Source of the DNA: a virus
DNA length: 25,883 nucleotides
Virus record (IMG/VR): IMGVR_UViG_3300048586_000265
Coordinates: 1 to 25,883 of that record
Reading direction: 5' to 3' (one strand)
Shown: one piece after another, positions 2,646 through 19,033 of the stretch
How the letters are laid out: each line of letters opens with the position of its first letter
Position numbering within the stretch: the first letter of the stretch is position 1
Notes under the pieces: generated by a model
What the model was told of the DNA's origin: nothing
Databases searched by the model: none
Seen by the model: the letters and a program-made list of their open reading frames with translations, nothing else
Made by a program: the position numbers and the translations under genes

Positions 2646-2755
2646 TGTGCCCTCCCAGGGCTCGGTTGACGGAAGGTTGCCACGTCGGCCGGTGCCGTCC
2701 ATCGCGGCCGGGTGGGGGGCTCGCCAGCGTGGGCGGGGGGGCCACTCGTCGCGGG

Positions 2756-2807
2756 CCGGGGGGGGCCTGCTGGGTAAATCGTAGCAGACCGCCCCCGGCG
2801 CTGTCAC
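2756..2807 (-). promoter_or_regulatory. Hairpin with embedded promoter-like sequence upstream of capsid
   Basis: The 158-bp gap between protease and capsid holds a hairpin with 16-base arms (2756-2771 and 2783-2798, 14 of 16 paired) and an 11-base loop. On the minus strand, GTGACA (2807-2802) and TACGAT (2783-2778) are 18 bases apart, a plausible -35/-10 pair overlapping the hairpin. The same arrangement occurs before the terminase gene. It may end protease transcripts and start capsid transcripts. The promoter call is inference. Confidence 0.5.
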
Positions 2808-3358
2808 GAACGCAGCGCGTCCAGCCGGGCCCGCATGGCCGCAGGATCGATGACGTAGCCAGAGGCCGCCACCGAGACCACCCGGGCGTCCCGACCCAGC
2901 GCACCGAAGGTGACCACGCTGAACTCGCGCAGCCGGGCCTTCGTGTGGAGGATGGTGGTGCGGCCCGAGGCCTCGTCGCGCTGCTCGGTCCAGGTGCCCC
3001 ACTCGAACCCGACCGAGATCTCGTCCACGATCCCTTCGCGCAGCAGCGCGAGGGCCTTACGGGCCTCGGGGATGTCCTCGTGCTCGCTGATCTTGGCGAC
3101 GAACCGCAGGTGCTCCTCGGAGTCGGTCAACTTGGTTGCCCGGCCGATCGGGGAGTCGGTGTCGTGCTGCCACAGGACCGCGACCCGATTGGGGGCCTTG
3201 ACCTGGGCCGAGAAAGCCCCGGGGGCCACCCTCTCGGCCAGCCGGGGGCCCCGGGGCACGTCCACGTTGTAGGCCACCGCGATGCCCGAGATGACCCCAG
3301 GAGTGGCCTCCTCGCTGGTGTCCAGGGCCGCCCGGAGGCTGGTCCACTTGTCCTTCAT
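2804..3358 (-). CDS. HK97-family prohead protease
   Basis: A 184-residue serine protease that matures the capsid by clipping the scaffold domain. The start is ATG 3358, overlapping the portal stop by 4 bases (ATGA). The expected fold markers appear in order: GVISGIAVAYN near residue 20, RVAPGAFSAQV, then VLWQHD near residue 62 with the catalytic His, and DEISVGFEWG near residue 113 with the catalytic Ser. A third acidic residue probably lies in the following LREFSVVTFGA strand. Length is typical for a stand-alone caudoviral prohead protease. It lies between portal and capsid, the canonical order. Confidence 0.93.
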   Translation of the reverse strand: MKDKWTSLRAALDTSEEATPGVISGIAVAYNVDVPRGPRLAERVAPGAFSAQVKAPNRVAVLWQHDTDSPIGRATKLTDSEEHLRFVAKISEHEDIPEARKALALLREGIVDEISVGFEWGTWTEQRDEASGRTTILHTKARLREFSVVTFGALGRDARVVSVAASGYVIDPAAMRARLDALRS

Positions 3359-4566
3359 GACTCCTCCTCGGGTGACCCTTCGGCCGGGTCGGCCGGGGGG
3401 GCTGGTGCCGCCGACGCTGGCATCGGCGGCAGGTTCTCGGACTGGCGGATCTCATCGATCGTGAGTGCGCCGATGTCGGATGCGATCTTGTAGGTCTCCC
3501 AGCGATTCTTGGTCTCGGACCGCAGCAGCGAGTCGAGGCTGAATCGGACGGTGACCTCACGCGGGAAGCAGGAGGACAGCCCAGTCTCGATAGCCGCGAT
3601 GTATCGGCCGAGCGTGACCTTGATGAAAGTCGCCCACTCGGTCTCCATGTTGGCGTAGACCCGGGACTCGCTGGGCACCCCGAGCAGGTACGGCGGGACC
3701 CCCACGATGTCGGAGGCCAGGCGCAGGTGGAACTCGCGGGTCGGGATCATGGACAGGTCGTTGCTGTTGAACGAGACCGGGCTGAACGAGGCCTTGCCCA
3801 TCACCGCGTAGCCATCCGTGCGAACAGCCTTCAAGAACCCGGCCTTCACCGCATCGGCCTCGGCCTGGTTCAGATCGACATCGAGGCTGACGATGCCGAC
3901 CGGCTGGCCGCTGTTCATCAGCACGTACTGGCTATTCTCGGTCGCGACCATCAGACGCAACTCGCGCTGGTACCGGTCCAGCACCCCCTGCCCCATGCGC
4001 TTACCGGCTCGAGCCCCCACCACCATGTGGAGCATGTCGGGGACCTCGACCTCGGACCAACCGTTCTCGCCGACCACCTGGTAGGTCTTGACGACCCCGT
4101 TCTCCTTGGTGCCGTAGGACACCTTCTCGGCATCGAACAGGGGCAGGCGCAGCGGGAAGCCCCGGTAGTCGCTGACCTCCGGGCCTCGGTAGGCGAACGC
4201 GTCGCCGTACCAGACCAGCGAGGAGGCCACGGCCGAGATCCAGGCGTCCCGGCCATGCCAGTACGGGTCGGGATTGCGCAGCAGCGGCGGGGTGGCCAGG
4301 CGCTCGGTCGAGCGGATCTGATCGGGCTGCTCCTGGTTGCGGTACAATGCCAGTGGCATCTGGGCCATCACGCCCGCGATCAACTCGACACCACGGCCGA
4401 TCCCGGGCAGGCCTGCGGCCTGCTCCTGAGTCACTGTGCCGACGTCGATCGAGTCGTTGACGATGCCAGGCCAGGGGGTGAACGCCGAGCGCCACCAGTC
4501 CCCATCCGAGCCGAACTCGACCCGGGACCCGCTGGCCGGGCGGCCGAACAGATCAAGCAGACCCAT
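3355..4566 (-). CDS. Portal protein
   Basis: A 403-residue HK97-type portal protein. It forms the dodecameric ring at one capsid vertex through which the terminase pumps DNA. It starts MGLLDLFGRPASG and contains family-typical stretches: GIGRGVELIAGVMAQMPLALYR near residue 55, NPDPYWHGRDAWISAVASSLVWYGDAFAY near residue 98, and ANMETEWATFIKVTLGRYI near residue 310. The C-terminal 20 residues are Pro/Ala/Glu-rich and probably disordered. The start overlaps the end of the small membrane-protein gene by 14 bases, and the stop overlaps the protease start. It is slightly short for the family but appears complete. Confidence 0.93.
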   Translation of the reverse strand: MGLLDLFGRPASGSRVEFGSDGDWWRSAFTPWPGIVNDSIDVGTVTQEQAAGLPGIGRGVELIAGVMAQMPLALYRNQEQPDQIRSTERLATPPLLRNPDPYWHGRDAWISAVASSLVWYGDAFAYRGPEVSDYRGFPLRLPLFDAEKVSYGTKENGVVKTYQVVGENGWSEVEVPDMLHMVVGARAGKRMGQGVLDRYQRELRLMVATENSQYVLMNSGQPVGIVSLDVDLNQAEADAVKAGFLKAVRTDGYAVMGKASFSPVSFNSNDLSMIPTREFHLRLASDIVGVPPYLLGVPSESRVYANMETEWATFIKVTLGRYIAAIETGLSSCFPREVTVRFSLDSLLRSETKNRWETYKIASDIGALTIDEIRQSENLPPMPASAAPAPPADPAEGSPEEES

Positions 4567-4711
4567 CGGTACGGTCCTCCTGTGCCTCGAAGATCAGCCC
4601 GACCAGTACCAGCGCGAGCCCCAGCGCGATCAACCCGGCCCAGGGGGCCAGCATGGCGAACCCGGCGGCGACCAGCAGCAGGCCGAGGACCTGGACCACC
4701 AGAACGATCAC
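4553..4711 (-). CDS. Small hydrophobic membrane protein between terminase and portal
   Basis: A 52-residue protein starting VIVLVVQVLGLL. GTG 4711 forms a GTGA overlap with the terminase stop, and the 3' end overlaps the portal start by 14 bases, so it is embedded in the packaging operon. Residues 1-41 contain two hydrophobic segments split by the short turn APWAG, suggesting a two-pass membrane hairpin. The tail is acidic and hydrophilic (EAQEDRTDGSA). I do not recognise a family. It resembles small membrane proteins found beside phage structural genes, but its role is unknown. Confidence 0.6.
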   Translation of the reverse strand: MIVLVVQVLGLLLVAAGFAMLAPWAGLIALGLALVLVGLIFEAQEDRTDGSA

Positions 4712-6579
4712 GCGACAACCACCTTCGGTCGGTCCTGCCGCTGGGCCCACCAGACGGCCAGGGTCGCGGCCTTGGCTCCCTCGGTCGGCCCCTCCGACTT
4801 GGTGGTCGAGATCCGCATCGCCTCGCCATACGTCTCGACCACCGCACCGATCACCTGCTCGGCCAGCAACTGCGACCCATCATGCCGGAGTGTACCAGCC
4901 TCGACCATCGGGCGAACAGTGGCGACCGCCGCAGCCAGGTCGGCATCTCCGATGAAGATCACCTGACGCACCCCCGCGATCCGGGGCAGGCGGCCCCTCA
5001 GGATCTTGGGCGCCAGGACGGTACACCCGCCGAGGGCCGCTTGCTTGATCACGTGCTCGAGGGCAGACCGGAACGAGATCTCGTCGGCCACCAGGCTGAC
5101 CCCCACCCGCTCCTCATCGAGCACCCCAGCAACGGCCACATACCAGCGGGCTTGCTTGGGCTCGGGATAGATCACGACCGCGCGGTTGGCCGCCGTCCCG
5201 GTCGGGATCATCAGGGCCGGGTCGGCCAGGGCCGCCCAAGCCTCGGGGTCGGCCATCGTGGGCAAGGTGACGTCGAGGTTGGGCCAGATATTGAGCCACT
5301 GTTCGGCGAATCCGTCCTTGCCGACCTTGCTGGCGATGAAGTCGCGTCGGCGCTGGTCCCAGTGGGGGCTGGCCATCCGCTGCTGCCGCACGTCGTGCGG
5401 CTCGTTGTCGGCAGCCGACCACTCGAGCAGCAGGGTCTGGTCCGGCTTGCTGATCTCGGCGATCGCCTCGGCCCTCGCGTCTACCATCAGACGAGTGGCC
5501 TTGCGGTGCGCGGTCGAGATCAGCATCAGCACGGGCTGCTCGCGCTCGGCCATCGTCGGGGTGATCCCCTCCTCGATGTGGAGCGGGTCGATCGACCAGG
5601 CCTCGTCCACCATCGCCATCGAGGCTGAATAGCCATAGACGGCCTCCTGCGCACGGATCAGCCAGCGCCCCATCTCACCGCCGCACTCGACCGCCCACTT
5701 GCCGTTTGCCCCCACCGCGTGCCACAGGGCCCCCGACCGCTCCATCATCGAGGCCCAGTTGCGGGCCGGGCGCTGGATCTCGTCGGCGATCGTCAGGTCC
5801 TTGGCGATGTGGAGCACCAACTGCTGCTCGCCGAGGGTCTCCCACTGGCTGATCCGGTCCAGCGAGATCTCGCGCAGCCCGACGCTCTTGCCGACCTGCC
5901 TGCTGGTCGAGAGCACCACGCGAGACCAGACCAGCACGCCGTCCTCGTCGTGTTCGTACATGCGCACGATCAGCAACTTCTGCCACCAGCGCAGGCTCTT
6001 CGCCTTCACAGGGACCATCGGGTCGGCCGCACGGCGGCTCTCGATGCGCTCAATCGCAGCCCAGCCATACGAGCCGACCGCACGAGGATGCGCATCGGTC
6101 ATCAGCCTCGGCCAGGTCGCATGCTCGGGCACGTCGAGCAGATCGGCCATCCACTCGACCTCGAGCCACTGGTCCGGGACCGCCCCGCCGACCGCCACGA
6201 ACGGCCCGTCCGGGGTTGAGATACTTGAACGTTCAAGGGGGAGTGTGTCAACCTGGGGCACAGGGGTCGACGTTTCGTTTCGAAAAAGCCGAGTTGACGC
6301 TGAGTTGCGCCTAACCGCCTGCTGAAGCCTGGCTCCGTGCCTGCTGTTACACCTGCGGTGGGCAACGACCAACCGGTCGTCTCCGTCTGGCAGCAGATCC
6401 CCACCGAGCATCAGCGGGTCGAGATGGTCGGTGGTCGGTCCGTCAGGGTGGGTGGAGGAGCGCAGGCTGTAGTCGATGGTGTCACCGCATCGGTAACAGA
6501 ACAGGCCTTCGGCCTCGGCCTTGTCCAGATAGGCCGAGGCCCGGGCCTTCCACCCGGGCTGGCGGTGCTTGTTGGCCAT
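4708..6579 (-). CDS. HNH endonuclease-terminase large subunit fusion
   Basis: A 623-residue protein starting MANKHRQPGWKARAS at ATG 6579 behind GAGGAG. Residues 1-90 form an HNH domain: CYRC (28-31), DHLDP with Asp51-His52, and VVAHRRCNSRHG with His74, Cys77, Asn78 and His81. A linker of about 40 residues follows, then the terminase ATPase: Walker A SRQVGKS (226-232), Walker B MAMVDEAW (321-328) and the coupling motif LISTAHR (353-359). The C-terminal half should be the RNase H-like headful/cos nuclease, although the usual Asp of its first strand is not obvious in AVVIYPEPKQ. HNH proteins are known partners of terminases in cos phages, normally as separate genes. Here the two are one frame. 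No small terminase subunit is seen. Confidence 0.9.
   Translation of the reverse strand: MANKHRQPGWKARASAYLDKAEAEGLFCYRCGDTIDYSLRSSTHPDGPTTDHLDPLMLGGDLLPDGDDRLVVAHRRCNSRHGARLQQAVRRNSASTRLFRNETSTPVPQVDTLPLERSSISTPDGPFVAVGGAVPDQWLEVEWMADLLDVPEHATWPRLMTDAHPRAVGSYGWAAIERIESRRAADPMVPVKAKSLRWWQKLLIVRMYEHDEDGVLVWSRVVLSTSRQVGKSVGLREISLDRISQWETLGEQQLVLHIAKDLTIADEIQRPARNWASMMERSGALWHAVGANGKWAVECGGEMGRWLIRAQEAVYGYSASMAMVDEAWSIDPLHIEEGITPTMAEREQPVLMLISTAHRKATRLMVDARAEAIAEISKPDQTLLLEWSAADNEPHDVRQQRMASPHWDQRRRDFIASKVGKDGFAEQWLNIWPNLDVTLPTMADPEAWAALADPALMIPTGTAANRAVVIYPEPKQARWYVAVAGVLDEERVGVSLVADEISFRSALEHVIKQAALGGCTVLAPKILRGRLPRIAGVRQVIFIGDADLAAAVATVRPMVEAGTLRHDGSQLLAEQVIGAVVETYGEAMRISTTKSEGPTEGAKAATLAVWWAQRQDRPKVVVA
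6224..6237. other. Perfect 14-bp palindrome in the HNH-TerL linker
   Basis: The sequence CTTGAACGTTCAAG is its own reverse complement. It lies in an unusually AT-rich stretch for this genome (about 6220-6320), which encodes the linker between the HNH and ATPase domains. It could be a protein-binding or packaging-recognition site. Its function is not known. Confidence 0.4.
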
Positions 6580-6635: not shown

Positions 6636-6644
6636 GTCGGTCAC
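6615..6644 (-). promoter_or_regulatory. Candidate late promoter upstream of terminase
   Basis: On the minus strand GTGACC (6644-6639) and TACAAT (6620-6615) are separated by 18 bases. They fit a sigma70-type -35/-10 pair. TACAAT sits in the hairpin loop and arm, and transcription would begin roughly 30 bases before the terminase ATG. The same design precedes the capsid gene. This is inference from consensus matching. Confidence 0.5.
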
Positions 6645-7066
6645 GCTCCGGACGAGCCGAACCCGTTGTGGCCCCTGGGGGTCTCGGGCATCTCGCCTTC
6701 GACCGGGACCACGGCCTGGGCGACGTTGAGCATGGGGATCGCCTGGCAGATCCGCTCGCCATCAGTCAGGGTGACGGCCTGGTCGGTCAGGTTGCGGACC
6801 ACGCCGAACAGCGGACCGGTGTAGCCGGGGTCGATCACTCCCGGGTTGAGCATCAGGCCCCGGTTCTTGAAGGTCGAGGACCGGCCGATCAGCAGCAGCC
6901 AGCAGCCGGTCGGTGCCTTGAGCCTGGTACGCAGCGGGATGCTGGCGAAGGCATGCGGCCCGATCCAGTGGTCTCCCTCGACGGCCAGGTCGAACCCGGC
7001 ATCGTCGTGGTAGGCCCTGGTGGGGGCCTGGCCCTGATAGATCATCCTGCCACCATGACGGGTCAT
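6641..7066 (-). CDS. dut: dUTP diphosphatase (trimeric dUTPase)
   Basis: A 141-residue enzyme hydrolysing dUTP to dUMP and pyrophosphate, which keeps uracil out of DNA. All five trimeric dUTPase motifs are visible: AGFDLAV near residue 24 (motif 1), GRSSTFKNRG near 76 (motif 2), GVIDPGYTGPL near 90 with the catalytic Asp and Tyr (motif 3), GERICQAIPM near 115 (motif 4) and RGHNGFGSSGA at the end (motif 5). ATG 7066 overlaps the previous stop by 4 bases and has GGAGGAG upstream. An internal ATG at 7045 is possible but has no better ribosome site. It is the last gene of the four-gene nucleotide operon and is followed by a strong hairpin. Confidence 0.93.
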   Translation of the reverse strand: MTRHGGRMIYQGQAPTRAYHDDAGFDLAVEGDHWIGPHAFASIPLRTRLKAPTGCWLLLIGRSSTFKNRGLMLNPGVIDPGYTGPLFGVVRNLTDQAVTLTDGERICQAIPMLNVAQAVVPVEGEMPETPRGHNGFGSSGA

Positions 7067-7440
7067 GTCTGCTGCTCCTCCAACCAGGCCAACGCCTGCT
7101 CGATGGTCTTGACCTGCGGGATGTCCATGAAGGTGAGGGCCCAGGACGGCGCGATGTCGCCGACCACCAGGGCCCGCACCCCGCTCTGGGCCGCCTCCAC
7201 GATCTCGGCCACGACTCCGATCGACAGCCGGTTGGCGTCCACCAGGGCCAGGACGACATCGACCTTGCGGATCACGGCGTGGTTGGCCGCTTGAAGGCCG
7301 GGGACCAGTGGGGCACCCTCACCGACCGACCAGGCCCGGGCCGGGTCGAAGATCACGTGGCCGTGGGTGAGCAGGGCCCGGCGGGCGTCTGCGGTGTCCA
7401 GGGGGCCCTGATCGATCGGGTGGGCCAGGTAGATCAGCAT
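7063..7440 (-). CDS. Nucleoside 2-deoxyribosyltransferase-like protein
   Basis: A 125-residue protein starting MLIYLAHPIDQGPLDT. The N-terminal strand-loop YLAHPID and the later VDVVLALVDANRLSIGVVAEI (residues 60-80) match the layout of the nucleoside 2-deoxyribosyltransferase-like Rossmann fold. In that family YLAxP begins the nucleoside site, and a Glu in the G(T/V)xxEI segment (here Glu79) is the nucleophile. Such enzymes exchange or hydrolyse deoxyribonucleosides or nucleotides. Length is close to the family minimum. It overlaps the MazG-like gene by 7 bases and the dUTPase by 4, so it belongs to the purZ-dut operon and may tune purine deoxynucleotide pools. Fold call moderate; substrate unknown. 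Confidence 0.6.
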   Translation of the reverse strand: MLIYLAHPIDQGPLDTADARRALLTHGHVIFDPARAWSVGEGAPLVPGLQAANHAVIRKVDVVLALVDANRLSIGVVAEIVEAAQSGVRALVVGDIAPSWALTFMDIPQVKTIEQALAWLEEQQT

Positions 7441-7895
7441 GCCGGGCCGCAATCGTGCTCGGCCCCGAGGCCCGGGAAGGCCCCTCCGAGGCCCTGGGAG
7501 CCCGGGGTGGCCCCAGAGGGCCCGGGCGGGCTCTCGTGGCCTCCCGTGGCCCTTCCTGGGCCGGGAAGGGGCACTCCCGGCCAGCCGCCTGCCTCCCGGA
7601 TCCGCTGGACCATCCTCACGTACACCCCCAGGTCCAGCCAGGAGTCGTCGCTGGGCATCCGGCCCTCGTGCCAGGCCGCCTCGATCCTGGCCATCTTGCC
7701 GACCGCGTAGGCCAGACAGCCCAACTCGGCGTGCTGGGCGTCGGTCAGGCCCTCGCGCCCGGCCATGTGAGCCAGCGAGCGGCCCATCTCGACCAGATCG
7801 CGGGCCCCGTACTCGACCGCCTTGGCGACCACCATCTCGATCTCGGACTCGGCCTTGGCCCGCCACCAGCCAGCCAGGGCCTGCTCGGCGCTCAC
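7434..7895 (-). CDS. MazG-like nucleotide pyrophosphohydrolase, MazZ candidate
   Basis: A 153-residue protein starting VSAEQALAGWW. The GTG start overlaps the purZ stop (GTGA). Residues 1-105 are all-helical, with Glu57 in AQHAELGCL, then AVGKMARI and PSDDSWLDLGVYVRMV (81-95). An acidic helix followed by a DxxxD-type helix is how phage MazG-like and related all-alpha NTP pyrophosphohydrolases bind Mg. In Z-genome phages the MazG-family enzyme MazZ turns dGTP into dGMP, the PurZ substrate, and the direct coupling to purZ suggests that job here. The last 45 residues are a Pro/Gly-rich tail encoded by a GC repeat that also occurs in the PrimPol gene. The classical EExxE motif is not clear, so the enzymatic call is tentative. 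Confidence 0.5.
   Translation of the reverse strand: MSAEQALAGWWRAKAESEIEMVVAKAVEYGARDLVEMGRSLAHMAGREGLTDAQHAELGCLAYAVGKMARIEAAWHEGRMPSDDSWLDLGVYVRMVQRIREAGGWPGVPLPGPGRATGGHESPPGPSGATPGSQGLGGAFPGLGAEHDCGPAC
7533..7553. repeat. GC-rich repeat copy in MazG-like tail
   Basis: A 21-base stretch, core CTCGTGGCCTCCCGTGGCCC, recurs in the same orientation at 10761-10781. It sits in a longer GGCC/GGGCC-rich segment (about 7440-7565) that encodes a low-complexity Pro/Gly tail. Confidence 0.7.
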
Positions 7896-8938
7896 TGAGC
7901 CGCCCCCATCTCGAACATGGTCCCCGGGCCGGTCCCGACCAGGGCCACCTTGGCCTGGGTCTGGTCCTCGATCATCCAGATCAGGTCCGACAGGTCCTTG
8001 GGCAGGTCCGAGTGCCAGCGGGTGCCGGACAGACCCGCGACCTGCGGGAACAGATGATCGGCCATGGTCAGCGCGATCCGGGCGACCGGGGCCCCACCGT
8101 TGGCCACCACGGCCTCGGCGGCCAGGTCCCGGTCCCAGGCCCCGACCCGGCGGGGCTTGCGAGTCACGGTGGTCAACTCGACCGGCAGACCCAGGGCCTC
8201 CCAGGTGGTCTCGCCACGCAGGGGGCCGCTGTTGCCAGCGACCCGGATCGGGTTGGGCCTCATCGCGACGTAGACCTCGAGGTCGGCCACGTTGGCCTGC
8301 CAGGGGCTCAGGCCCGCCATGGCCAGGAAGTCGATGGCCCGGCAATCGCTGCTCGTACACTGGGGGTAGAACCCGGCATGGAGCCCGAGCCCGTAGCCCT
8401 GGGTGCCCTCGATGATCACCCGGCCGCCATCGGTCAGGACCTCGTTGAGCACCACGCTGGCCTCGGTCGAGCCACCCCACAACTCGGCGGTCCGCATGAT
8501 CCGGTCGGCCCTGGCGGCCCCGATGCCCTTGCCGGTCGAGCCCACCTTGGCCGTGAGGGCCGCCTGCGCCTCGGCGACCTGGTGGCGGCCGGGCTCGAGC
8601 ACCGTCGCCTGCCAGTCGATGGTGAGCCGGTCGCGCACCTTGAACCCGGCACCCTCGAGCATCTCGATCTCGTGCTCGAGCACCGACCCGTCGATCTCCG
8701 ACCCGGCTGCGATCACCAGCAGCGCCTCGGGGTCGGTGACCGCCGCGACCGGGACGGTGCGCAGGGCCCAGACCCGTCCGGTCGGGTCGGTGGCCGAGTG
8801 CCCCGCGTTGGGACCCGCCACCCTCACGACCGCCGTGGGACCGCTGGGGTGAGGCTGGCGGCTCAGGTGCGCGACGACCGCGCCCTTGCCCTCCGAGCCG
8901 AACTGGCCGCCGACGACGACCTGGATCTTTCCACTCAT
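7892..8938 (-). CDS. purZ: PurZ-type adenylosuccinate synthetase homologue (2-aminoadenine synthesis)
   Basis: A 348-residue PurA-superfamily enzyme, the short archaeal/phage form (bacterial PurA is about 430). The P-loop is GGQFGSEGKGA (residues 10-20): Ser15 replaces the catalytic Asp of GDEGKG in PurA, the established PurZ hallmark. Other family blocks are AGPNAGHS (41-48), STGKGIGAA (134-142), EGTQGYGLGLHAG (177-189), TSSDC (195-199) and KPRRVGAWD (261-269). PurZ condenses dGMP with aspartate to N6-succinyl-2-amino-dAMP, which PurB cleaves to dZMP. ATG 8938 follows AGGAG. The gene leads a coupled operon with MazG-like, deoxyribosyltransferase-like and dUTPase genes and lies next to the putative origin. 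LTMADH (290-295) keeps an Asp where PurA binds guanine, so GTP use (PurZ0-like) is possible. Confidence 0.9.
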   Translation of the reverse strand: MSGKIQVVVGGQFGSEGKGAVVAHLSRQPHPSGPTAVVRVAGPNAGHSATDPTGRVWALRTVPVAAVTDPEALLVIAAGSEIDGSVLEHEIEMLEGAGFKVRDRLTIDWQATVLEPGRHQVAEAQAALTAKVGSTGKGIGAARADRIMRTAELWGGSTEASVVLNEVLTDGGRVIIEGTQGYGLGLHAGFYPQCTSSDCRAIDFLAMAGLSPWQANVADLEVYVAMRPNPIRVAGNSGPLRGETTWEALGLPVELTTVTRKPRRVGAWDRDLAAEAVVANGGAPVARIALTMADHLFPQVAGLSGTRWHSDLPKDLSDLIWMIEDQTQAKVALVGTGPGTMFEMGAAQ

Positions 8939-9010
8939 CTCGCTGCTCCTGTCTCGTGGTGCTGGGCCGCTATCCTAGCGTGCCCAGGGTCTGTGTATCC
9001 AGGCTGGCCT

Positions 9011-9186
9011 GTGTCCGCCCGCTCTGGTGTCCGTGTCCGTGTCCGGTGTCCGCCAGCAGATCCCGTGCCCGGCGGTGACGGCGTGTGTCCACCGTGACAC
9101 CCCCCCCCGAAGGGGGGGTCACGTGGACACGCCTCGCCGCACGATGTCCAAAGAAATAATGGACACGAGTGGACACGAGTGGACAC
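9011..9186. other. Candidate replication origin with iterons and hairpin
   Basis: The 277-bp gap between PrimPol and purZ has ten copies of one hexamer. GTGTCC occurs at 9011, 9027, 9033, 9039, 9046 and 9085, and its inverse GGACAC at 9125, 9161, 9171 and 9181. Between the two sets is a hairpin of about 19 bp (9085-9130, two single-base bulges, 6-base loop) and the only AT-rich patch here, AAAGAAATAAT (9150-9160). The last three inverse copies form 10-bp direct repeats. Iterons, a cruciform and an AT-rich patch beside a replication gene fit an origin. Promoter elements for purZ may also lie here. Confidence 0.6.
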
Positions 9187-9215
9187 GGGCCCTCGTGGGA
9201 GCGGTCCCATGGGGG

Positions 9216-11360
9216 TCATGGGAGGACCAGCCCGTCGTCTGCTCCACGCAGCCGACCGGTGTTCATCGCCCCCCGGACGGCCCCTTCGAGGGCCCGTACG
9301 CCACTCCTTCCGCCGTTCTCCTTCGCGGCCTCGGACCAGGCCACCCGGCCCGCCTTCGTGCCCGGCGAGAAAGGCTCAGGGTGGCGGGCAGCGACCAGCC
9401 CGACCAGGATCTCGATGTCGGCCTGGTCCTTGTCGCGGCGCTCGCGCTCGGCCTTGGTCGAGACGGTCCCGGAGACCAGCCCGAGCAGACGGCCTTCGGG
9501 CTCGTAGGCCAGCGGGGTCTCGGCCACCAGCACATCACGTCCCACGGCGGCGAAGGTCCGGTTCAGCGGTGCGCTGAACAGGGCCTCGAGGTCGTCGGCG
9601 GGCTCGGTGTCCTCGTCCTTGCGATCCAGCCTCCACAGGGCGTCGGGCCAGCCCTCGAAGGCCGAGGCACCCCGGGCCCGGGTCGCCGAGTGGCCGTGGT
9701 GGTGGACCACCAGCAGGTCGGCCCCGACATCGGCGGCCAGGGCGTCCAACCCGGCCAGGACCACCGCAACCTCACTGTTGCTGTTCTCGTCCATCCCGAG
9801 CCCGGCCAGCACCGGACCCAGCGGGTCGACCACGATCACTGAGCAGCCCCGGTCGGTCAGGGTCTTGCGCCAGCGGTCCCGGGCCTTGTCCGAGCGCAGG
9901 TCGAAACTGGCGGCCCGACCTCGCATCGGCACCAGGTGGATCCGGTCGGTGGCCTGCCGGTCCAGGCCGAGTGAGGAGTGCCAGTCGTGCTGCTGGCGCA
10001 GGCTCATCTCGATGTCGAATACCACGATCGACCCGTCGATCGGGGCCACGTCGAACCGGCCCAGGAACGGCTCGCCGGTCAACAGGCTGCGCTCGATGTT
10101 GAGCACCATGGTGGTCTTGCCCGCCTTTGCGCTGGCCGTCAGCAGCACCTTACCGCCACTCGGCCACAGGTCCTCGATCCGCCAGGCGACATCCTCGGGC
10201 GGGTGCTCGAGCAGGTCGGTCAGCCTGACCGGTTCAGGGTGGACCAGCGCCAGGCCCAGGCGCTCGGCGTCGTACTCGCGGGCCTCCCGGTCCAGCCGGA
10301 ACTGTTCGGCCCGGCGCACGACCGCCTGGGCCCACAGGTCGCCCGAGGGCTCGGGAGGGGCCTCGGTGGGCTCGTCAGCGGCGGTCCCGGGCTCGGCGAC
10401 CGAGCCGCAGCAGGACCACATCAGCGGGTCGGCGACCTCGATCTTGTCCAGTGCCTGCTCGACCGCCCGCTTGAACTCTTCGAACACCCCGGCCCGGTCG
10501 TCGCCCATGGCTTCCAGGAACCCGTCACGGATCAGGGCCAGTGCGTCGTTGCGCCCCGAGTGGCCCTCGGCCCACCCGGCGATCACGGCCCAGACCCCCT
10601 TGGTCATCGCGTCATGCCTGCTGCCCTCGACCATGCCCTCGATGGCCCGGGCGGCCTGCCGGGACAGGTACTCACACGGAGGACCACCCACGGGAGGCCC
10701 AGGAACGGCCACGGGAGCCCCTGGGGCGGCCCCGGGGCCCGCTGGCACCCGGGAGGCCCCCTCGTGGCCTCCCGTGGCCCTCCGTGGGCCTCGCAGGGCC
10801 AGCAGGGCGCTGGCCACCACCAGCGGCAGGACCGGCAGACTGGCGACCGGGGGCAGGAATTCCAGCACCGCACCGGTCCGCTGGTCGATCGCTCGGTACT
10901 CGGCTTGCGCGTCGGGGTTCCACGAGCCCGGGGCCATCGAGTAGCGGTGGCCGAACCGCAGGATCTCACCAGCACCGAACCCGGTAGGCAGGTCGGCCTG
11001 ATCGACCGTCTCGGGCAGCCGGTACAGCCAGTGGCCGCCCTCGTCGGCCCGAGCGTTGATCACCACTGTGGCTGGCAACTTCGAGCGCAGGGTGTCCCAG
11101 CGGATCGAGTCGCCCCCCTTGTACAGATCGACGTCCAGCGCGATCACCGAGACCGGGTAGCGCACCCCGAGGTTGCCCCAGCGCTCGGGGTCGGCCTCCA
11201 CGACCGCGTACCAGTCGGCGAACGAGGGCAGCGGATTCTTCTGCCCCTGGAACCCCCCGGGCTCGGGGGCCTTGGCCTTGGTGGCCAGCGGGATCGGGCC
11301 GTAGCCGTGCTCGGCCAGGGCCAGCGCCCGGGCCATCAGGTCCGGGTGGATCTCATTCAT
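9216..11360 (-). CDS. Bifunctional PrimPol (AEP) and RepA-like helicase/ATPase
   Basis: A 714-residue replication protein starting MNEIHPDLMARALALAEHGY behind a GGAG site. Residues 1 to about 185 form an archaeo-eukaryotic primase/polymerase domain: IALDVD (74-78) gives the catalytic Asp76 and Asp78, and EGGHWLYR has His110. A GC-repeat linker follows (about 190-230). After a helical PriCT-like segment (about 235-330) comes a RecA/RepA-type ATPase: Walker A ASAKAGKT near 408-415, VVFDIE near 446-450, the strand VIVVDPLG near 507-512 and VVHHHGHS near 553. The protein could prime and unwind at the adjacent origin. No other DNA polymerase is encoded, so either this protein or host Pol III copies the genome. 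In cyanophage S-2L a PrimPol also serves a Z genome. Confidence 0.88.
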   Translation of the reverse strand: MNEIHPDLMARALALAEHGYGPIPLATKAKAPEPGGFQGQKNPLPSFADWYAVVEADPERWGNLGVRYPVSVIALDVDLYKGGDSIRWDTLRSKLPATVVINARADEGGHWLYRLPETVDQADLPTGFGAGEILRFGHRYSMAPGSWNPDAQAEYRAIDQRTGAVLEFLPPVASLPVLPLVVASALLALRGPRRATGGHEGASRVPAGPGAAPGAPVAVPGPPVGGPPCEYLSRQAARAIEGMVEGSRHDAMTKGVWAVIAGWAEGHSGRNDALALIRDGFLEAMGDDRAGVFEEFKRAVEQALDKIEVADPLMWSCCGSVAEPGTAADEPTEAPPEPSGDLWAQAVVRRAEQFRLDREAREYDAERLGLALVHPEPVRLTDLLEHPPEDVAWRIEDLWPSGGKVLLTASAKAGKTTMVLNIERSLLTGEPFLGRFDVAPIDGSIVVFDIEMSLRQQHDWHSSLGLDRQATDRIHLVPMRGRAASFDLRSDKARDRWRKTLTDRGCSVIVVDPLGPVLAGLGMDENSNSEVAVVLAGLDALAADVGADLLVVHHHGHSATRARGASAFEGWPDALWRLDRKDEDTEPADDLEALFSAPLNRTFAAVGRDVLVAETPLAYEPEGRLLGLVSGTVSTKAERERRDKDQADIEILVGLVAARHPEPFSPGTKAGRVAWSEAAKENGGRSGVRALEGAVRGAMNTGRLRGADDGLVLP
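10761..10781. repeat. GC-rich repeat copy in PrimPol linker
   Basis: Same 21 bases as 7533-7553, in the same orientation. It sits in a GGGCC/CCACGGG-rich segment (about 10680-10800) that encodes the Pro/Gly/Ala linker between the primase and helicase halves. Confidence 0.7.
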
Positions 11361-11429: not shown

Positions 11430-11942
11430 TCAGGACTTGGCCAGCAGGGCGGCCAGGTCGGCGGCCTCATCGCTGGCCGGGGCCGGGGTGGCCGGGGCCT
11501 GCGCGAACAGGTCCTCGACCGCCGCGATGGCCGGGGGCTCGTAGGCCACGGTGAACAGGCGCGGGGCCTTGAACCCCTTCTTGGGGGGCTCGCCCTCGCC
11601 GGACCACACGATCGCGACCCTACCGCCCGGCTCGGGCTTACGGGCCTTGGCCTTGTTCAGCGCCTCGCGCAGCGCGGTGAACATGTGGCCCCGGACGAAC
11701 ACCCGGCGCTCGCCATCGTCGCCCTCGATCCCCGGGTCGATCTGCCCGGTCGCGATGGTCAGGATGACCTCCATCTTGGGCCGCCCGTCGTCCCAGGTCA
11801 GCAGGTCCCCGGTCTCGAAGTCGCGGGCCTGGCGGGCCTCGGCCTTGGTGATCGGGCCGACCACCTTCTGCCCGAGGGTCTCCCACTTGACCGCCGGGGC
11901 ACCGCCACCAGCGAACAGGTCATCCAGCGTGTCGTTGCTCAT
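11430..11942 (-). CDS. Putative single-stranded DNA-binding protein
   Basis: A 170-residue protein starting MSNDTLDDLFAGGGAPAVKW behind AAGGA. The centre has alternating strands of the OB type: GQKVVGPITKAEA, PKMEVILTIATGQ, ERRVFVRGHMFTALREAL and GRVAIVWSGEGEPP. A flexible Ala/Pro tail follows (QAPATPAPASDEAADLAALLAKS). It sits directly upstream of the PrimPol-helicase with a hairpin between them, where an SSB is expected. The C-terminus lacks the strongly acidic tip (DDxPF) of bacterial SSB. Call by context and strand pattern; it could be another OB-fold replication accessory. Confidence 0.5.
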   Translation of the reverse strand: MSNDTLDDLFAGGGAPAVKWETLGQKVVGPITKAEARQARDFETGDLLTWDDGRPKMEVILTIATGQIDPGIEGDDGERRVFVRGHMFTALREALNKAKARKPEPGGRVAIVWSGEGEPPKKGFKAPRLFTVAYEPPAIAAVEDLFAQAPATPAPASDEAADLAALLAKS

Positions 11943-12224: not shown

Positions 12225-13022
12225 TCAAGACCTCCACGCGATCTCGCGGCTCGAGCGCCAGGCACGCACCCGCACCGAGTGCTGGGCCATCTCCCAGCCG
12301 GTCGAGATGTCCAGCCAGACCAACTCGCACCGAGCCTGGCCCTGGGGCAGCCAGATCATCAGGGCCCGATCCTGGTCCACGTGCTCGGACAGATCGACCG
12401 TGCGCTGGTCGGTGCTCGTGTCGTAGACCGTGCCGTGGGCGTAGACCGCACACTGGACCGAGGCCGAGTGCGGGTAGGCCGCCGCATGCGTGCCGGTCTT
12501 GATGTCTGCGATGAAGGTTCCCTCGTCGGTGCGCACCAGCCGGTCGAACGACCCGGCCGTGCGGATCGAGTCGCAGACCACGAAGGTCTCGCGGGCCAGC
12601 ATCTGAAGGCCCTCGGTCGCCTGGCGGTAGGCGGCCAGGTCGGCGGCCACTTCGCCCGAGACCCCGAGCGCCTCGATCGGCTCGCCATCATCGACCCGCT
12701 CGGTCAGCGCGTGGAGTGCCGTGCCCATGTTGGCTGCGGCCTGCGACTCGGCCGCCTCCATCGCCTGCTCGGCAATCTCGTTCAGGGCCGCCTTGTCACC
12801 AGGGTCGACCGACGCTGCCAGGGCCCGCAGGTCGGCCCGGCGGGCCAGCCCGATGATCACCTGGCGCTGCTTCCAGGCCATCAACCCGTAGGTGTCGGTC
12901 AGGGTCGTGGCCAGGGTCGAGGCCCGGGTGTAGGCGACCCGCTTACCGCCGGTTGCCGGGACCAACAGCGGTCGGCCCCAGCGGTCCCGGGGCGGCCCGG
13001 CGAAGGCCGCATCCAGGCTCAC
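12225..13022 (-). CDS. RecB/Cas4-family PD-(D/E)XK exonuclease
   Basis: A 265-residue nuclease starting VSLDAAFAGPPRDRWG. GTG 13022 overlaps the previous stop (GTGA). Active-site elements occur in RecB order: GTALHAL with His104, GSFDRLV with Asp160, FIADIKTG with Asp173 and Lys175, and the downstream QCAVY (190-194), a QxxxY motif. Such enzymes act as 5'-3' exonucleases in phage recombination and replication, or in degrading host DNA. The protein lacks an obvious four-Cys iron-sulphur cluster of Cas4. It belongs to a coupled run of genes from the resolvase-like nuclease through PurB. Confidence 0.82.
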   Translation of the reverse strand: MSLDAAFAGPPRDRWGRPLLVPATGGKRVAYTRASTLATTLTDTYGLMAWKQRQVIIGLARRADLRALAASVDPGDKAALNEIAEQAMEAAESQAAANMGTALHALTERVDDGEPIEALGVSGEVAADLAAYRQATEGLQMLARETFVVCDSIRTAGSFDRLVRTDEGTFIADIKTGTHAAAYPHSASVQCAVYAHGTVYDTSTDQRTVDLSEHVDQDRALMIWLPQGQARCELVWLDISTGWEMAQHSVRVRAWRSSREIAWRS

Positions 13023-13303
13023 TGGTCGCCCTCGAAGGTCAGCGGCGTGCGCAGGCCGGGGGTGGTCGCGACCCAGGCCAGCCGGTCTGCGTCCGAGTCG
13101 AAGTAGTGGACCAGCACCTTGGGGTTGGTCTGGGACCAGGCCGGGTCCACCAGGACCACGGCGTAGTTGCTGGCGGGCAGGTTGACGCTGTAGACCTGGG
13201 TGCCGTCCACGTCCCCGAGATGGGTGATGTGCGGGGCTCCTGCCAGGCACGCCAACACCAACTCGCGGCTGGTCGGCCGGTTGACGTCGCTGCGTCGGAT
13301 CAT
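13019..13303 (-). CDS. Hypothetical protein between PurB and exonuclease
   Basis: A 94-residue protein starting MIRRSDVNRPTSRELVLACL. The ATG overlaps the purB stop by 4 bases, and its own stop overlaps the exonuclease start. The N-terminal helix is followed by strands QVYSVNLPASNYAVVLVD and KVLVHYFDSDADRLAWVA, suggesting a small alpha/beta fold. I do not recognise a family. Tight coupling on both sides says it is really translated. Confidence 0.7.
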   Translation of the reverse strand: MIRRSDVNRPTSRELVLACLAGAPHITHLGDVDGTQVYSVNLPASNYAVVLVDPAWSQTNPKVLVHYFDSDADRLAWVATTPGLRTPLTFEGDQ

Positions 13304-14520
13304 GAGTGCTGCTCCTTGTTCGATTCGGCCGGGCGTGAGCCCAGCAGGCGGGTGATCTCGGCCAGGTGGCCGAGGTCGGGTCGAAGGTCGAGGTCGTCCA
13401 CCCGCACGGCCGGGTCGGCCGCCATCTCACGGGCGGCGGCGTACGAGACCCCGGCCCGCTGGATCTTGGTCAGCCTGGCGTGTGCGCTGGTGTTGCGGGC
13501 GGTGGCGATGTTGCGGGCCATCTGCTCGGTGTTGAACACCAGGTCGGTGACCAGCCGGGTCATCAGGTTCAGCAGATAGCCGGTCGTGTTGGCCATCTGC
13601 CCGACCAGCAGCCGCTCGACCGAGGAGTGGCTGATGTCCCGGTCATGCCAGGACGCCACGTTGGCCCACAGGGCGGTCGAATCGGCCACCACCACCCGGG
13701 CCAGCCCGCAGGCCCTCTCGGCCTCGATCGGGTTGCGCTTGCCCGGCATGGCCGAGGAGCCCGCGCGGCCCTCCGAGGCCCCTTCTCGGGCCTCGTCGAT
13801 ACCTTCCTGGGCCCACAGCCGGATCTGGACCGCCACGGCCTCGCAGGCGGTGGCCAGCCCGGCCAGGGTCGCACCCCAGGCGGCCAGCGAGTCGCGGGGG
13901 TAGATCTGGCTGGCGACCCGGGCTCGAGGCAGGCGCAGGTGCTCGGCGGCCCGGTCGGCCACGTCGGGACTGATCTCGTGGTGCCCGCCCGAGGGCCCAC
14001 CGATCTTGGCGACCTCGACCCACTCGCAGGCTTCCTGGAACCGCAGCACGCAGCGACTGACCATCAGGGCCAGGTCGAGCAGGCGGTGGCCCAGCGTGTC
14101 GATGACCGCTGACTGGCCGTGGGTCCGAGCCAGCCTCGGAGTGTCGGCATGCTCGGCCGCTCGGGCCAGCAGCGCCTCGCGCAGCCGGAACCCCTCTTCG
14201 ATCAGCACGTGGTTGACCTCGCGCAGCCGCAGGGCCAGGCCCGTGTCGGTGACGTCGCTGCTGGTCAGCCCGATGTGGACGTGCTCGAGCCCCCAGGCCA
14301 GCAGGAACCCGACGACCTCGTGGCCGCACTCGGCCGTGGCGGCCTGCCATGCCTCGACGCTGGGGGCTGGGGCCTCGAAGGCCTGCTCGGCCCAGGCCAC
14401 CGGGATCTGCCCGTGCTCAGCCTGCGCCAGCAGGACCGCACGCTCGACCGCGCACCAGGTATCCAGCACGGCCTCGGGGCACAGGTTGATCTCGACGGCG
14501 GGGTGGGTGTAGGGGCTCAT
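13300..14520 (-). CDS. purB: Adenylosuccinate lyase (phage-encoded PurB)
   Basis: A 406-residue member of the fumarase/aspartase superfamily. It starts MSPYTHPAVEIN. Family blocks in order: GLTSSDVTDTGLA near residue 82 (substrate-binding SSDV), RTHGQSAVIDTLG near 131 (catalytic His region), KIGGPSGGHHE near 170, and the signature loop GSSAMPGKRNPIEAE near 254 with the catalytic Ser. The enzyme splits succinyl-AMP to AMP and fumarate. With PurZ present, it would convert N6-succinyl-2-amino-dAMP to dZMP. The TSSDVTDT and MPGKRNP details favour ASL over argininosuccinate lyase or fumarase. ATG 14520 overlaps the upstream nuclease stop. Cellular PurB is usually 430-480 residues, so this is a compact form. 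Confidence 0.92.
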   Translation of the reverse strand: MSPYTHPAVEINLCPEAVLDTWCAVERAVLLAQAEHGQIPVAWAEQAFEAPAPSVEAWQAATAECGHEVVGFLLAWGLEHVHIGLTSSDVTDTGLALRLREVNHVLIEEGFRLREALLARAAEHADTPRLARTHGQSAVIDTLGHRLLDLALMVSRCVLRFQEACEWVEVAKIGGPSGGHHEISPDVADRAAEHLRLPRARVASQIYPRDSLAAWGATLAGLATACEAVAVQIRLWAQEGIDEAREGASEGRAGSSAMPGKRNPIEAERACGLARVVVADSTALWANVASWHDRDISHSSVERLLVGQMANTTGYLLNLMTRLVTDLVFNTEQMARNIATARNTSAHARLTKIQRAGVSYAAAREMAADPAVRVDDLDLRPDLGHLAEITRLLGSRPAESNKEQHS

Positions 14521-14852
14521 CGGCCAGCGTCCTTCAACAGGGCGGCCAGACGACCGGCCGGGAGGATCGCGTACCACTGGCCCACATCGGTGGACCCCCG
14601 GCGCTTGGCGATCACGAACCCGGTATCCGCCTTGGCGTTGGAGATCTCGGCCTCCAACTCGGCCAGCCACCCGGCCAGGTCTACCTTGGCGGTGTTCTTG
14701 ACCTCGATCACGACCCCGGGCAGCCCGGCGATGTCGCCCTGGTCGGCCGCCCCGGTCAGGGCCCGACGCTCGGCCGCCAGCCAGCCCTGGTCGCGCAGCC
14801 AGGCGACCACCGCCGACTCGCCCGCCGTGCCCTTGCGCTTGCTCCTGTTCAT
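14517..14852 (-). CDS. PD-(D/E)XK nuclease, Holliday-junction-resolvase-like
   Basis: A 111-residue protein starting MNRSKRKGTAGESAVVAWLR. The motif order matches archaeal-type (Hjc-like) resolvases and related phage nucleases: an N-terminal Glu in GTAGESAV, then DQGDIAGLPG with Asp, and GVVIEVKNT with the E-x-K pair. Length is right for Hjc-like enzymes. The ATG at 14852 follows GGAGCAAGGG. An open frame extends further upstream but over the hairpin and gap, so it is rejected. The stop overlaps the purB start by 4 bases. It may resolve branched replication intermediates or trim DNA for packaging. Confidence 0.78.
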   Translation of the reverse strand: MNRSKRKGTAGESAVVAWLRDQGWLAAERRALTGAADQGDIAGLPGVVIEVKNTAKVDLAGWLAELEAEISNAKADTGFVIAKRRGSTDVGQWYAILPAGRLAALLKDAGR

Positions 14853-15744: not shown

Positions 15745-15948
15745 TCAGGCCTGGGCCTTGCGGGCCGCGCGGCGGATCGCCTTGGCGCTCATCACGCCGC
15801 CGCAGGGCAGGCGGTAGAAGCCGGGGTCGGGGGTCTCGGTCCAGACCATCTCGCCGTCGATCCACTGGCCCACCCGGCTGGTGTTCTCGGCCAGGGTCCC
15901 GGCCTCGAGCATCGCGAGGATCTCGGCGGGGGTGTGGGTGCTGGTCAT
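15745..15948 (-). CDS. Hypothetical small early protein
   Basis: A 67-residue protein starting MTSTHTPAEILAMLEAGTLA, with GAGGAG 8 bases before the ATG. It has an N-terminal helix, a Trp-rich middle (GQWIDGEMVWTETPDPGFYRL) and a basic helical end (AKAIRRAARKAQA). It follows one of the TATAAC repeat elements (15988-16033), which probably drives it. No family recognised. Confidence 0.65.
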   Translation of the reverse strand: MTSTHTPAEILAMLEAGTLAENTSRVGQWIDGEMVWTETPDPGFYRLPCGGVMSAKAIRRAARKAQA

Positions 15949-15987
15949 GGTGGCTGCTCCTCTGATCGGTTCTGGCTGGACAGGTTC

Positions 15988-16033
15988 GTTATACCCACCC
16001 CGGCCCGGGTTCAAACCTCGGGCCGGGTGTGGG
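15988..16033 (-). promoter_or_regulatory. Hairpin-TATAAC repeat element, copy A
   Basis: On the minus strand TTGAAC (16014-16009) and TATAAC (15993-15988) are 15 bases apart. They are embedded in a long imperfect inverted repeat (15993-16033). Three further copies keep the 15-base spacing. Each lies upstream of a small gene, here the 67-residue one. Confidence 0.6.
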
Positions 16034-16038
16034 CTCGG

Positions 16039-16257
16039 TCACAGGTTCTCGGCTCGCCACTGGGCCGCGTACTCGGTGGCCGGGAATCGGCCGTCGCGCT
16101 GGAAGGCCTCGACCGCCGAGTGGAGGTTGTCGCTGGGGCGGCCCCCGGTCAGGTTGCCGATCGTCCAGGCCTCGCCCATCAGGGCCTCGATGGTCTCGGG
16201 GTCGGTGATCCCGGCGCGGTCCAGGACGGCCTGCTGGCGGGGGTGGAGGGTTCGCAT
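16039..16257 (-). CDS. Hypothetical small early protein
   Basis: A 72-residue protein starting MRTLHPRQQAVLDRAGITDP, with AAGGAG upstream. Mostly helical: a GITDPETIEALMGEAWTIG helix pair, then SAVEAFQRDG and a C-terminal YAAQWRAENL. It lies directly after the TAGACGTCTA element at 16307-16338. Its stop is just before the copy A hairpin. No family recognised. Confidence 0.65.
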   Translation of the reverse strand: MRTLHPRQQAVLDRAGITDPETIEALMGEAWTIGNLTGGRPSDNLHSAVEAFQRDGRFPATEYAAQWRAENL

Positions 16258-16306
16258 CGTGTCTGCTCCTTGATCGGGGGGCCGGTCCGTCCCGGCCTCA
16301 CATGAT

Positions 16307-16338
16307 TATTCAACCATAGACGTCTACCCCTGAACAAG
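16307..16338 (-). promoter_or_regulatory. TAGACGTCTA promoter/operator-like element, copy 1
   Basis: A 32-base element shared with 17989-18020 and 18991-19022. It has a perfect 10-bp palindrome TAGACGTCTA (16317-16326). On the minus strand TTGTTC stands 18 bases ahead of TTGAAT, possibly a promoter with an operator in its spacer. It overlaps the end of the upstream gene and precedes the 72-residue gene. Confidence 0.5.
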
Positions 16339-16677
16339 TCGGACCCTCTGGTCGATCACCCGGCAGCGGTGCTCGGGCAGGACCAGCAGCCCCGGCCGCC
16401 GGGGGCTGGCCGCCGTGCGCCACTCGATCCGGCCGCCGTGGATCGAGGGTAGGCCCCAACTCGGCCAGCCCAGCAGCCACAGGGCCGCCTCCCCGACCAC
16501 GCTCAACGGCACGGGGTCGAGATCGACGTCGAGCCCGGCCGAGTCGGCATCGAGCCCCGAGACCACGCCCCGGCCGCACTTGGGGCACCTGCGGGCCTGG
16601 GGGGTTCGGGACGTGTGGCGCTGCGTGAGCACCCCCGCCGAGACCAGCCGGGCCAGGACCGGCCCGGGAAGGCTCAC
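16324..16677 (-). CDS. Hypothetical zinc-knuckle protein
   Basis: A 117-residue protein starting VSLPGPVLARLVSAGVLTQR. GTG 16677 overlaps the previous stop. It has a CPKCGRGVVSGLDAD segment near residue 31, which is common in small actinophage proteins, and a later Cys in LPEHRCRVIDQ that could complete a metal site. The stop lies inside the TAGACGTCTA element. Function unknown. Confidence 0.7.
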   Translation of the reverse strand: MSLPGPVLARLVSAGVLTQRHTSRTPQARRCPKCGRGVVSGLDADSAGLDVDLDPVPLSVVGEAALWLLGWPSWGLPSIHGGRIEWRTAASPRRPGLLVLPEHRCRVIDQRVRLVQG

Positions 16678-17292: not shown

Positions 17293-17856
17293 TCAGCCCT
17301 CGATCAGGGTGTACTGGAAGGTCGTGGCCTTGGCCCCGCTCTTGGTGGTGTAGTGGAACTCGTCGCCAGCCTCGACCGTGCCCTCGTAGACCCAGCGGCC
17401 GACCTTGGCCTTGACGGTCGGCTTGGCGGTGGTCTTGGGCTTGTGGCCGCCGACCGGCTTGCCGTTGGACTTGACCGGGCGCTTGGCCCCGGCGGCCACG
17501 GCCTCGGCAAACCCGAACTGGCTGGCGTAGGTCAGCGGGTCGGTGGTCTTGGCCATGCCGCCGTCGAGGACGGTCACGTCGCCGTTGAGCCGGGCCGCCG
17601 TGATCAGCAGGCCCTTGACCCGGGCGTCGTGGCCGGGGGCGAAGGTGCGCTTGGTCTCCTGGTCGCACATGGTCTCGAGGTAGACCCAGCCCGCCTCGTC
17701 GCCGATCACTGTGTCCAGGTAGGCGCGGTGGTTGCGCGGCAGGGCCTGGGCGTTGAAGGGCTTGTCGGTCTCGGCCGGGATGTCGATTCGGATCTGGCCG
17801 CACAGGCAGGGGTGGGTCTTGCTGGCGGTGCTCGTCTCGATCGTGGTGCTGGTCAT
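17293..17856 (-). CDS. Hypothetical early protein
   Basis: A 187-residue protein starting MTSTTIETSTASKTHPCLCG, with AGGAGCAGAC before the ATG. A CLCG knuckle near residue 17 could bind metal. A basic low-complexity linker (KRPVKSNGKPVGGHKPKTTAKPTVKAK, about residues 124-150) separates the main domain from a C-terminal strand-rich segment (GRWVYEGTVEAGDEFHYTT). The linker may contact nucleic acid. It is preceded by both repeat elements (17898-17945 and 17989-18020), so it is probably strongly expressed early. No family recognised. Confidence 0.75.
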   Translation of the reverse strand: MTSTTIETSTASKTHPCLCGQIRIDIPAETDKPFNAQALPRNHRAYLDTVIGDEAGWVYLETMCDQETKRTFAPGHDARVKGLLITAARLNGDVTVLDGGMAKTTDPLTYASQFGFAEAVAAGAKRPVKSNGKPVGGHKPKTTAKPTVKAKVGRWVYEGTVEAGDEFHYTTKSGAKATTFQYTLIEG

Positions 17857-17897
17857 GTCTGCTGCTCCTTGATTGGTGGGTTGTCGCTTGCGGTTCG

Positions 17898-17945
17898 GTT
17901 ATACCCCCTCGGGCCGGGTCTCAAACTCGGTGCCGATGTGGGCTC
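17898..17945 (-). promoter_or_regulatory. TATAAC repeat element, copy B
   Basis: Minus-strand TTGAGA (17924-17919) and TATAAC (17903-17898), again 15 bases apart. In this copy the inverted-repeat arms have diverged and no longer pair well, while the two boxes and their spacing remain. That favours a promoter over a terminator role. Confidence 0.55.
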
Positions 17946-17988
17946 GATCACGTTCTGTGCTGGTGGGCCGGGGCGGCCCGCCGAGGGC

Positions 17989-18038: not shown

Positions 18039-18224
18039 TCAGCGCCCGGTGGCCCGGTGGCCGTGGGCCGCCCGGTCGGCCTGGACTCGCGACCAGAACC
18101 CGTACTTGCGGGTCCCGCAGGAGCAGGCGTAGGACCAGGTGGTGGTCTTGCGCCCGGCCTGGGTCTGGCGCTGGTGCTCGCTGATGGCGGTGTTGTGGGC
18201 GAAGAGGTTGTCGGTGTTCGGCAT
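18039..18224 (-). CDS. Hypothetical small protein
   Basis: A 61-residue protein starting MPNTDNLFAHNTAISEHQRQ, with AAGGAG 7 bases before the ATG. The ACSCGTRKYGFW segment (about residues 33-44) looks like half of a zinc knuckle in a basic context, and the end is basic (RAAHGHRATGR). It is preceded by repeat copy C. Function unknown. Confidence 0.65.
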   Translation of the reverse strand: MPNTDNLFAHNTAISEHQRQTQAGRKTTTWSYACSCGTRKYGFWSRVQADRAAHGHRATGR

Positions 18225-18262
18225 GGTCGCTGCTCCTTGGTCGGTTTGTTGCTTGCGGTTTG

Positions 18263-18308: not shown

Positions 18309-18312
18309 CGTG

Positions 18313-18639: not shown

Positions 18640-18678
18640 GGTGGCTGCTCCTTGAATCGGTTCTTGCTGGACGGGTTC

Positions 18679-18724: not shown

Positions 18725-18728
18725 TCGG

Positions 18729-19022: not shown

Positions 19023-19033
19023 CCGGGACACGG

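Follow-up and report, generated by a model that had tools for sequence, protein, structure and literature searches.

The window analysed here is an entire virus record of 25,883 bases, in which a 714-amino-acid open reading frame fusing a PrimPol to an AAA_25 ATPase lies beside a set of genes predicted to make the adenine substitute diaminopurine (Z). The features are given below by position.

1-143: left-hand copy of the terminal overlap, matching 25741-25883 at 139/143 positions
in 1485-3002, minus strand: capsid
2804-3358, minus strand: protease
3355-4566, minus strand: portal
4708-6579, minus strand: terminase
6641-7066, minus strand: DutZ homologue of dUTPase fold, predicted dATP/dGTP pyrophosphohydrolase
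7063-7440, minus strand: DmtZ homologue of NDT fold, predicted dAMP hydrolase or deoxyribose-5-phosphate transferase to Z
7434-7895, minus strand: 'GapZ', an all-helical protein of no assigned family, found conserved just behind purZ in PurZ0 phages
7892-8938, minus strand: PurZ of the PurZ0 type, with a QFGS motif in which Ser replaces PurA Asp13
9216-11360, minus strand: PrimPol fused to an AAA_25 ATPase
11430-11942, minus strand: phrog_1911 protein, function not assigned, in the replication block
12225-13022, minus strand: PDDEXK-type exonuclease (phrog_466, PF12705), in the replication block
13300-14520, minus strand: PurB-like adenylosuccinate lyase, predicted to convert dSMP to dZMP; likely start MSPYTHP
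14517-14852, minus strand: Holliday-junction-resolvase-like protein (phrog_244)
15936-16041, 16245-16342, 17844-17951, 18212-18316, 18627-18732 and 18933-19038: repeated blocks
19316-20119, minus strand: amidase
23489-25117, minus strand: putative tape measure
25741-25883: right copy of the terminal overlap, which points to a circle of about 25,740 bp

The record appears to be the complete circular genome of a tailed phage, about 25.74 kb in length, because the 143-base overlap of its ends is accompanied by tail-chaperone frames that cross the joined ends. The four mismatches in the 143 bases all fall within the first 17, beside a G run. When the ends are joined, the reading frames of the tail chaperone have the putative major tail protein on one side and the tape measure on the other, and the two overlapping frames that span the circular junction fit a frameshifted tail chaperone. 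Read along the minus strand, the order is terminase, portal, protease, capsid, putative major tail protein and tail chaperone up to the junction, and then tape measure, tail, amidase, small genes, the replication block, the Z cassette and terminase again; the major tail, chaperone and tape-measure names come from sequence reading and gene order, without a family match. Since the record looks complete, the absence of a gene from it counts. The junction (1-40, 25740-25770) coincides with a G/C run in the tail chaperone locus, whose overlapping frames would need a frameshift, and this homopolymer may be both the slippery site and the cause of the assembly break there. Neither an Rfam family nor a tRNA was found in the window. 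The repeated blocks, about 40-95 nt long and 60-90% alike, precede small early genes; some of them carry a GGTTCAAACC core with G+C-rich inverted arms, and no sigma-70-like promoter or terminator was found at the blocks.

The fusion protein matches the Prim-Pol family over residues 12-164 (PF09250, E 1.6e-10, 42.1 bits vs a cut-off of 22.8) and AAA_25 over residues 381-558 (PF13481, E 1.5e-29), with the Walker A stretch from residue 409. In alignment with other phage PrimPols, residues D76, D78, H110 and E132 fall at conserved positions, and we take them to occupy the AEP motif places. Its likeness to known proteins is distant: the PrimPols of named PurZ0 phages match only the PrimPol domain (E 1.1e-6), blastp against the S-2L PrimPol gave no real match (best E 0.23), a comparison with PDB sequences gave nothing useful, and a search with the whole protein returned 13 loci, which match its ATPase part. 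The six named PurZ0 phages encode PrimPol proteins of 831-902 amino acids that carry PriCT_1 and/or DUF927, or no second domain, in Pfam; AAA_25 was found by Pfam in none of them, and all six also encode Pol I. Motif I, DxD, reads ExE in the PrimPols of the PolA-less contigs G005, G007, G009 and G011, and DVD in the window. A 94-amino-acid ORF without a Pfam match lies between PrimPol and purZ (8935-9219, minus strand), and G011 has a 121-amino-acid ORF in the corresponding place.

Downstream of the fusion lie purZ, gapZ, dmtZ and dutZ, all with open frames and each overlapping the next (6641-8938). The best solved relative of the window PurZ is PDB 7vf6 (E 2.2e-90), the PurZ0 of phage Archimedes (PMC12884076). 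A 29-row tree places the window protein among 23 PurZ0 rows, separated with a 100/100 split from six PurZ rows of DatZ-bearing phages, with modest branch support inside the PurZ0 part, and the motif Q[FY]GS is present in the window PurZ and in 28 of the 29 rows, G035 being no match to the pattern used. Profiles made without the window recovered its PurZ (E 1.3e-133), PurB (E 1.3e-51), DmtZ (E 5.4e-16) and DutZ (E 1.7e-40), so the Z pathway that a sequence-only reading had assigned to this DNA is borne out at the level of homology. The phage therefore appears to have a PurZ0-type pathway, and its DNA would be expected to contain Z. Of the 15 PolA-less records with purZ, a small and non-random sample, 14 encode a PurB of their own; among named PolA-bearing phages it was seen in 3/6, within the stretch examined, and in G035 none was found.

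The two genes at the end of the cassette bear on how adenine might be kept out. In the window DmtZ, Y4, D10, P33, N53, E79 and W100 correspond to Y6, D12, P57, N77, E103 and W124 of Ghobes, the six residues highlighted in PMC12884076 as a Tyr/Asn/Glu triad with Asp12, Pro57 and Trp124 (Ghobes numbering), and five of these six are invariant in an alignment of eight rows. An AF2 model of the protein (pLDDT 90) superposes on the deoxyribosyltransferase 7o62 (Z 16.0, rmsd 2.3, 123 aligned) and on human DNPH1 (Z 13.7, rmsd 2.7, 121 aligned). The window DutZ matches PF00692 (E 3.9e-20), and its 40 best matches of 325 phage records all come from Microbacterium, Micrococcus or Arthrobacter phages; it may be a plain dUTPase, as fold and motifs fail to separate dUTPase from DutZ. 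A dUTPase homologue of Wayne-like phages was suggested in 2021 to do the job of DatZ (PMC8599892), and DutZ and DmtZ of Ghobes and Wayne, both PurZ0 phages, were shown in 2026 to degrade dATP to dAMP and the latter to adenine (PMC12884076). Because the window proteins are homologous to these enzymes, the remover of dATP that had been supposed missing is very likely present and already has a name. The earlier proposal that an unknown early gene removes dATP thus survives in part: another early gene is the likely remover, and it need not be an unknown one, given the DutZ and DmtZ homologues at 6641-7066 and 7063-7440.

The absence of DatZ and of a family-A polymerase, on which the sequence-only reading was built, was upheld by every search with a working control. 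The DatZ family (PF12917) had 0 matches in the window and 50 other records, while its control match in E. coli was found, and the HD family (PF01966) was found in 0/9 records searched. An HMM built from five phage DatZ proteins reached a best E of 2.6 across all window ORFs of at least 30 amino acids, and in leave-one-out controls with the same approach no left-out DatZ scored worse than E 2.5e-22; no HD or DatZ homologue is therefore found among the window ORFs. Nor did a MazZ relative turn up in the window with profiles of MazZ-2 and the SH-Ab 15497 protein (best E 5.8). A further dNTPase among the small early ORFs was considered and rejected, as Pfam and PHROGs scans, with some tiny ORFs left out, showed no HD, MazG or polymerase at a trustworthy score. 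Given that DatZ is absent from 51/51 records searched, its loss is the rule in the PurZ0 clade and no peculiarity of the window phage.

PolA has a different distribution. PF00476 is missing from the window and from 18/50 other records and present in 32/51, a proportion that is not a population frequency because the 44 of 109 IMG/VR loci that entered these searches were picked by length. An HMM built from six Pol I proteins of PurZ0 phages gave a best E of 1.6 in the window. As the genome profile search had missed the PrimPol of G010, which hmmscan finds at E 5e-13, the absence of PolA was rechecked by tblastn with six Pol I proteins: the best E was 0.43 on the window and 0.041 in any PolA-less record among the window and 17 whole IMG/VR records, and G035 matched at E 2.15e-105. 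Neither a family-B polymerase (PF00136) nor DnaE was found in the window; DNA_pol_B_2 also had zero window matches, but its control was likewise matchless everywhere. The fusion at 9216-11360 is thus the sole candidate polymerase encoded in the window, as had been claimed for it, and what is unusual about this phage is the missing DpoZ, not the missing DatZ.

The genome is not alone in this. Seventeen IMG/VR records were examined whole, 16 chosen as PolA-less and G035 as the nearest GapZ relative, with the PolA-less G036 and G037 left out. Three PolA-less records have ends that overlap convincingly: G009 (32,186 bases, overlap 123/123), G011 (34,080 bases, overlap 99/99) and G028 (32,957 bases, overlap of 129 bases at 98.4%); the end overlap of G017 is a tandem repeat and that of G038 spans 42 bases, and neither was counted as complete. 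PrimPol with AAA_25 and without PolA occurs as one protein in G010, G011 and G028 and as two adjacent ORFs in G009, and the order purB, replication genes, PrimPol, purZ, gapZ, dmtZ, dutZ is common to G009, G010, G011 and the window. Since these four records are also PolA-less with a PrimPol, a PrimPol-only PurZ0 genome is no accident of a single assembly. The contig of G035, whose GapZ is 69% identical to that of the window, carries PolA, so the loss of PolA is not uniform near the window phage, which speaks against a simple lineage story. Our literature search found no PolA-less PurZ0 phage in print.

The gene between purZ and dmtZ, for which we use the provisional name 'GapZ' coined in the present analysis, was recovered in the window by a profile made without it (E 3.5e-34). 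A search of IMG/VR with the GapZ alignment alone returned 28 loci, 26 of which have purZ just upstream; in L116 and L127, the remaining two, the stretch examined ends within about 400 bases of gapZ and contains no purZ, with dmtZ and dutZ following gapZ. GapZ occurs in 31 phage records, among them Microbacterium (18), Gordonia (6) and Streptomyces (5), and the genus counts equal those of PurZ. Wayne is without GapZ, its place being occupied by a protein with the domain called DUF5664 in PMC12884076. The main text of that paper makes no mention of the Ghobes GapZ accession, and a literature search found GapZ nowhere in print. The protein is modelled as four helices (pLDDT 89), and its invariant residues across 33 rows include K24, Y28, E56, K66, R69, D83, D87 and Y91. 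Its profile matched a phrog_474-like alignment in hhalign (prob 56, E 1.1e-4), and its identity with MazZ-2 was rejected at the sequence level (hhalign prob 0.4). A fold search against solved structures gave no match at E below 0.001, a second look gave Z up to 5.8, which is usual for helical bundles, with iMazG at Z 4.4 and within noise, and the profile returned chance rows only from PDB sequences. Our guess is that GapZ could be a further nucleotide phosphatase, perhaps MazG-like. In Burkholderia phage Bm1 and Ochrobactrum phage OH, proteins labelled 'phosphofructokinase' lie near purZ/datZ (L174:8398-9084, L175:5475-5975); they seem to bear little resemblance to a kinase and look more like small helical proteins of nucleotide metabolism, and the label may derive from PHROG 474.

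Among named Z phages, the closest in gene content are those of the Ghobes/Wayne type, which like the window phage have PurZ0, DutZ and DmtZ and no DatZ; Ghobes also shares PurB and a GapZ homologue adjoining purZ. They differ in encoding Pol I and a longer PrimPol protein without AAA_25, whereas the window lacks PolA and its genome measures about 25.7 kb. Phages of the phiVC8 / SH-Ab 15497 type (PurZ, MazZ, DatZ, DpoZ) share a PurZ, with a small gene immediately behind purZ, but encode DatZ and Pol I, and their PurZ falls on the other side of the 100/100 split. The cyanophage S-2L (MW334946; PMC8065100, PMC8342488) resembles the system proposed here in that PrimPol is the sole encoded polymerase and adenine is excluded by depletion of the pool; unlike the window it has PurZ rather than PurZ0, together with MazZ and DatZ, and its PrimPol is not recognisably that of the window by blastp. 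The S-2L PrimPol accepts both A and Z (PMC8065100), and PMC8342488 describes PolA in every Z phage then known except S-2L. For phage NrS-1, the PrimPol is held responsible for genome synthesis (PMC8718748), in passages that make no mention of Z DNA.

Taken together, the window is probably the complete genome of a small PurZ0-type Z phage that keeps adenine out through cleaning of the nucleotide pool, relying on neither DatZ nor a Z-selective Pol I. Under this scheme, DutZ and DmtZ would empty the dATP pool, with DmtZ releasing adenine from dAMP or passing its deoxyribose phosphate on for use in dZMP. PurZ0 would join dGMP and aspartate to form dSMP, with GTP as its expected source of phosphate, phage PurB would convert dSMP to dZMP, and host kinases would raise dZMP to dZTP, with GapZ possibly adding a nucleotide-phosphatase step. 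The genome could then be copied by a polymerase that needs no discrimination, the phage PrimPol being the likelier choice, with S-2L as precedent, and the host replicase the less likely one. We infer that the window PrimPol is the replicative polymerase by analogy with such precedents, and it may instead only prime.

In that second case, host DNA polymerase III would copy the genome and the exclusion of A would run wholly through the nucleotide pool, an account we hold to be somewhat improbable but far from negligible. When datZ, mazZ and purZ are expressed in E. coli, Z appears in chromosomal and plasmid DNA (PMC8342488); host polymerases thus accept dZTP, and for this reason the host replicase stays a serious rival. 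PurZ0 phages with PolA encode a PrimPol as well, which is not the sole polymerase there and may act as a primase. Against this stand the S-2L (PMC8065100) and NrS-1 (PMC8718748) precedents for PrimPol as the genome polymerase and the active-site carboxylates that the window PrimPol has kept. Whichever polymerase acts, replacement could be partial, phage DNA made without DatZ or DpoZ then mixing A and Z, as the earlier reading also allowed. This we consider rather unlikely. In its favour, the window encodes no selective polymerase, the kinetics of DutZ and DUF5664 indicate depletion and not strict exclusion (PMC12884076), and even DpoZ fails to block incorporation of A fully (PMC8599892). Against it, removal of dATP by DutZ and then DmtZ would take two steps and end with cleavage of the glycosidic bond, and the Z cassette is intact in PolA-less records.

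Two further explanations were weighed. The contig could be incomplete or misassembled, with DpoZ lost in assembly; the record carries no completeness value, its overlap has those four mismatches, and 25.7 kb is small beside the 39-83 kb of named PurZ0 phage genomes. The terminal overlap, the tail-chaperone locus across the joined ends, the conventional order of structural genes and three independent contigs with end overlaps but no PolA (G009, G011, G028) make such a loss very improbable. The slimmest chance falls to a purZ cassette that is a decayed remnant in a phage with ordinary DNA: the function of the cassette is predicted from homology, but its four genes are open and overlapping, the catalytic residues of DmtZ are kept, and relatives retain the whole purZ, gapZ, dmtZ, dutZ set.

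The clean-up by DutZ and DmtZ was already known, and the loss of DatZ is the rule in the PurZ0 clade; what is unusual is a PurZ0 genome without PolA in which PrimPol is the sole encoded candidate, and which, by its end overlap, is a very compact Z-phage genome. The analysis also singles out GapZ as an uncharacterised purZ-linked gene. A second group of phages beside S-2L, with PrimPol and DutZ/DmtZ in the place of DatZ, would make the sufficiency of pool cleaning against adenine directly testable. We suggest, tentatively and with more doubt than confidence, that several PurZ0 lineages dropped the Z-selective polymerase, and that DutZ, DmtZ and GapZ, the last as a new family of nucleotide phosphatases, suffice for an adenine-free genome copied by a non-selective PrimPol or host polymerase. 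If this is true, DpoZ would be an accessory, and not a requirement, of Z genomes.
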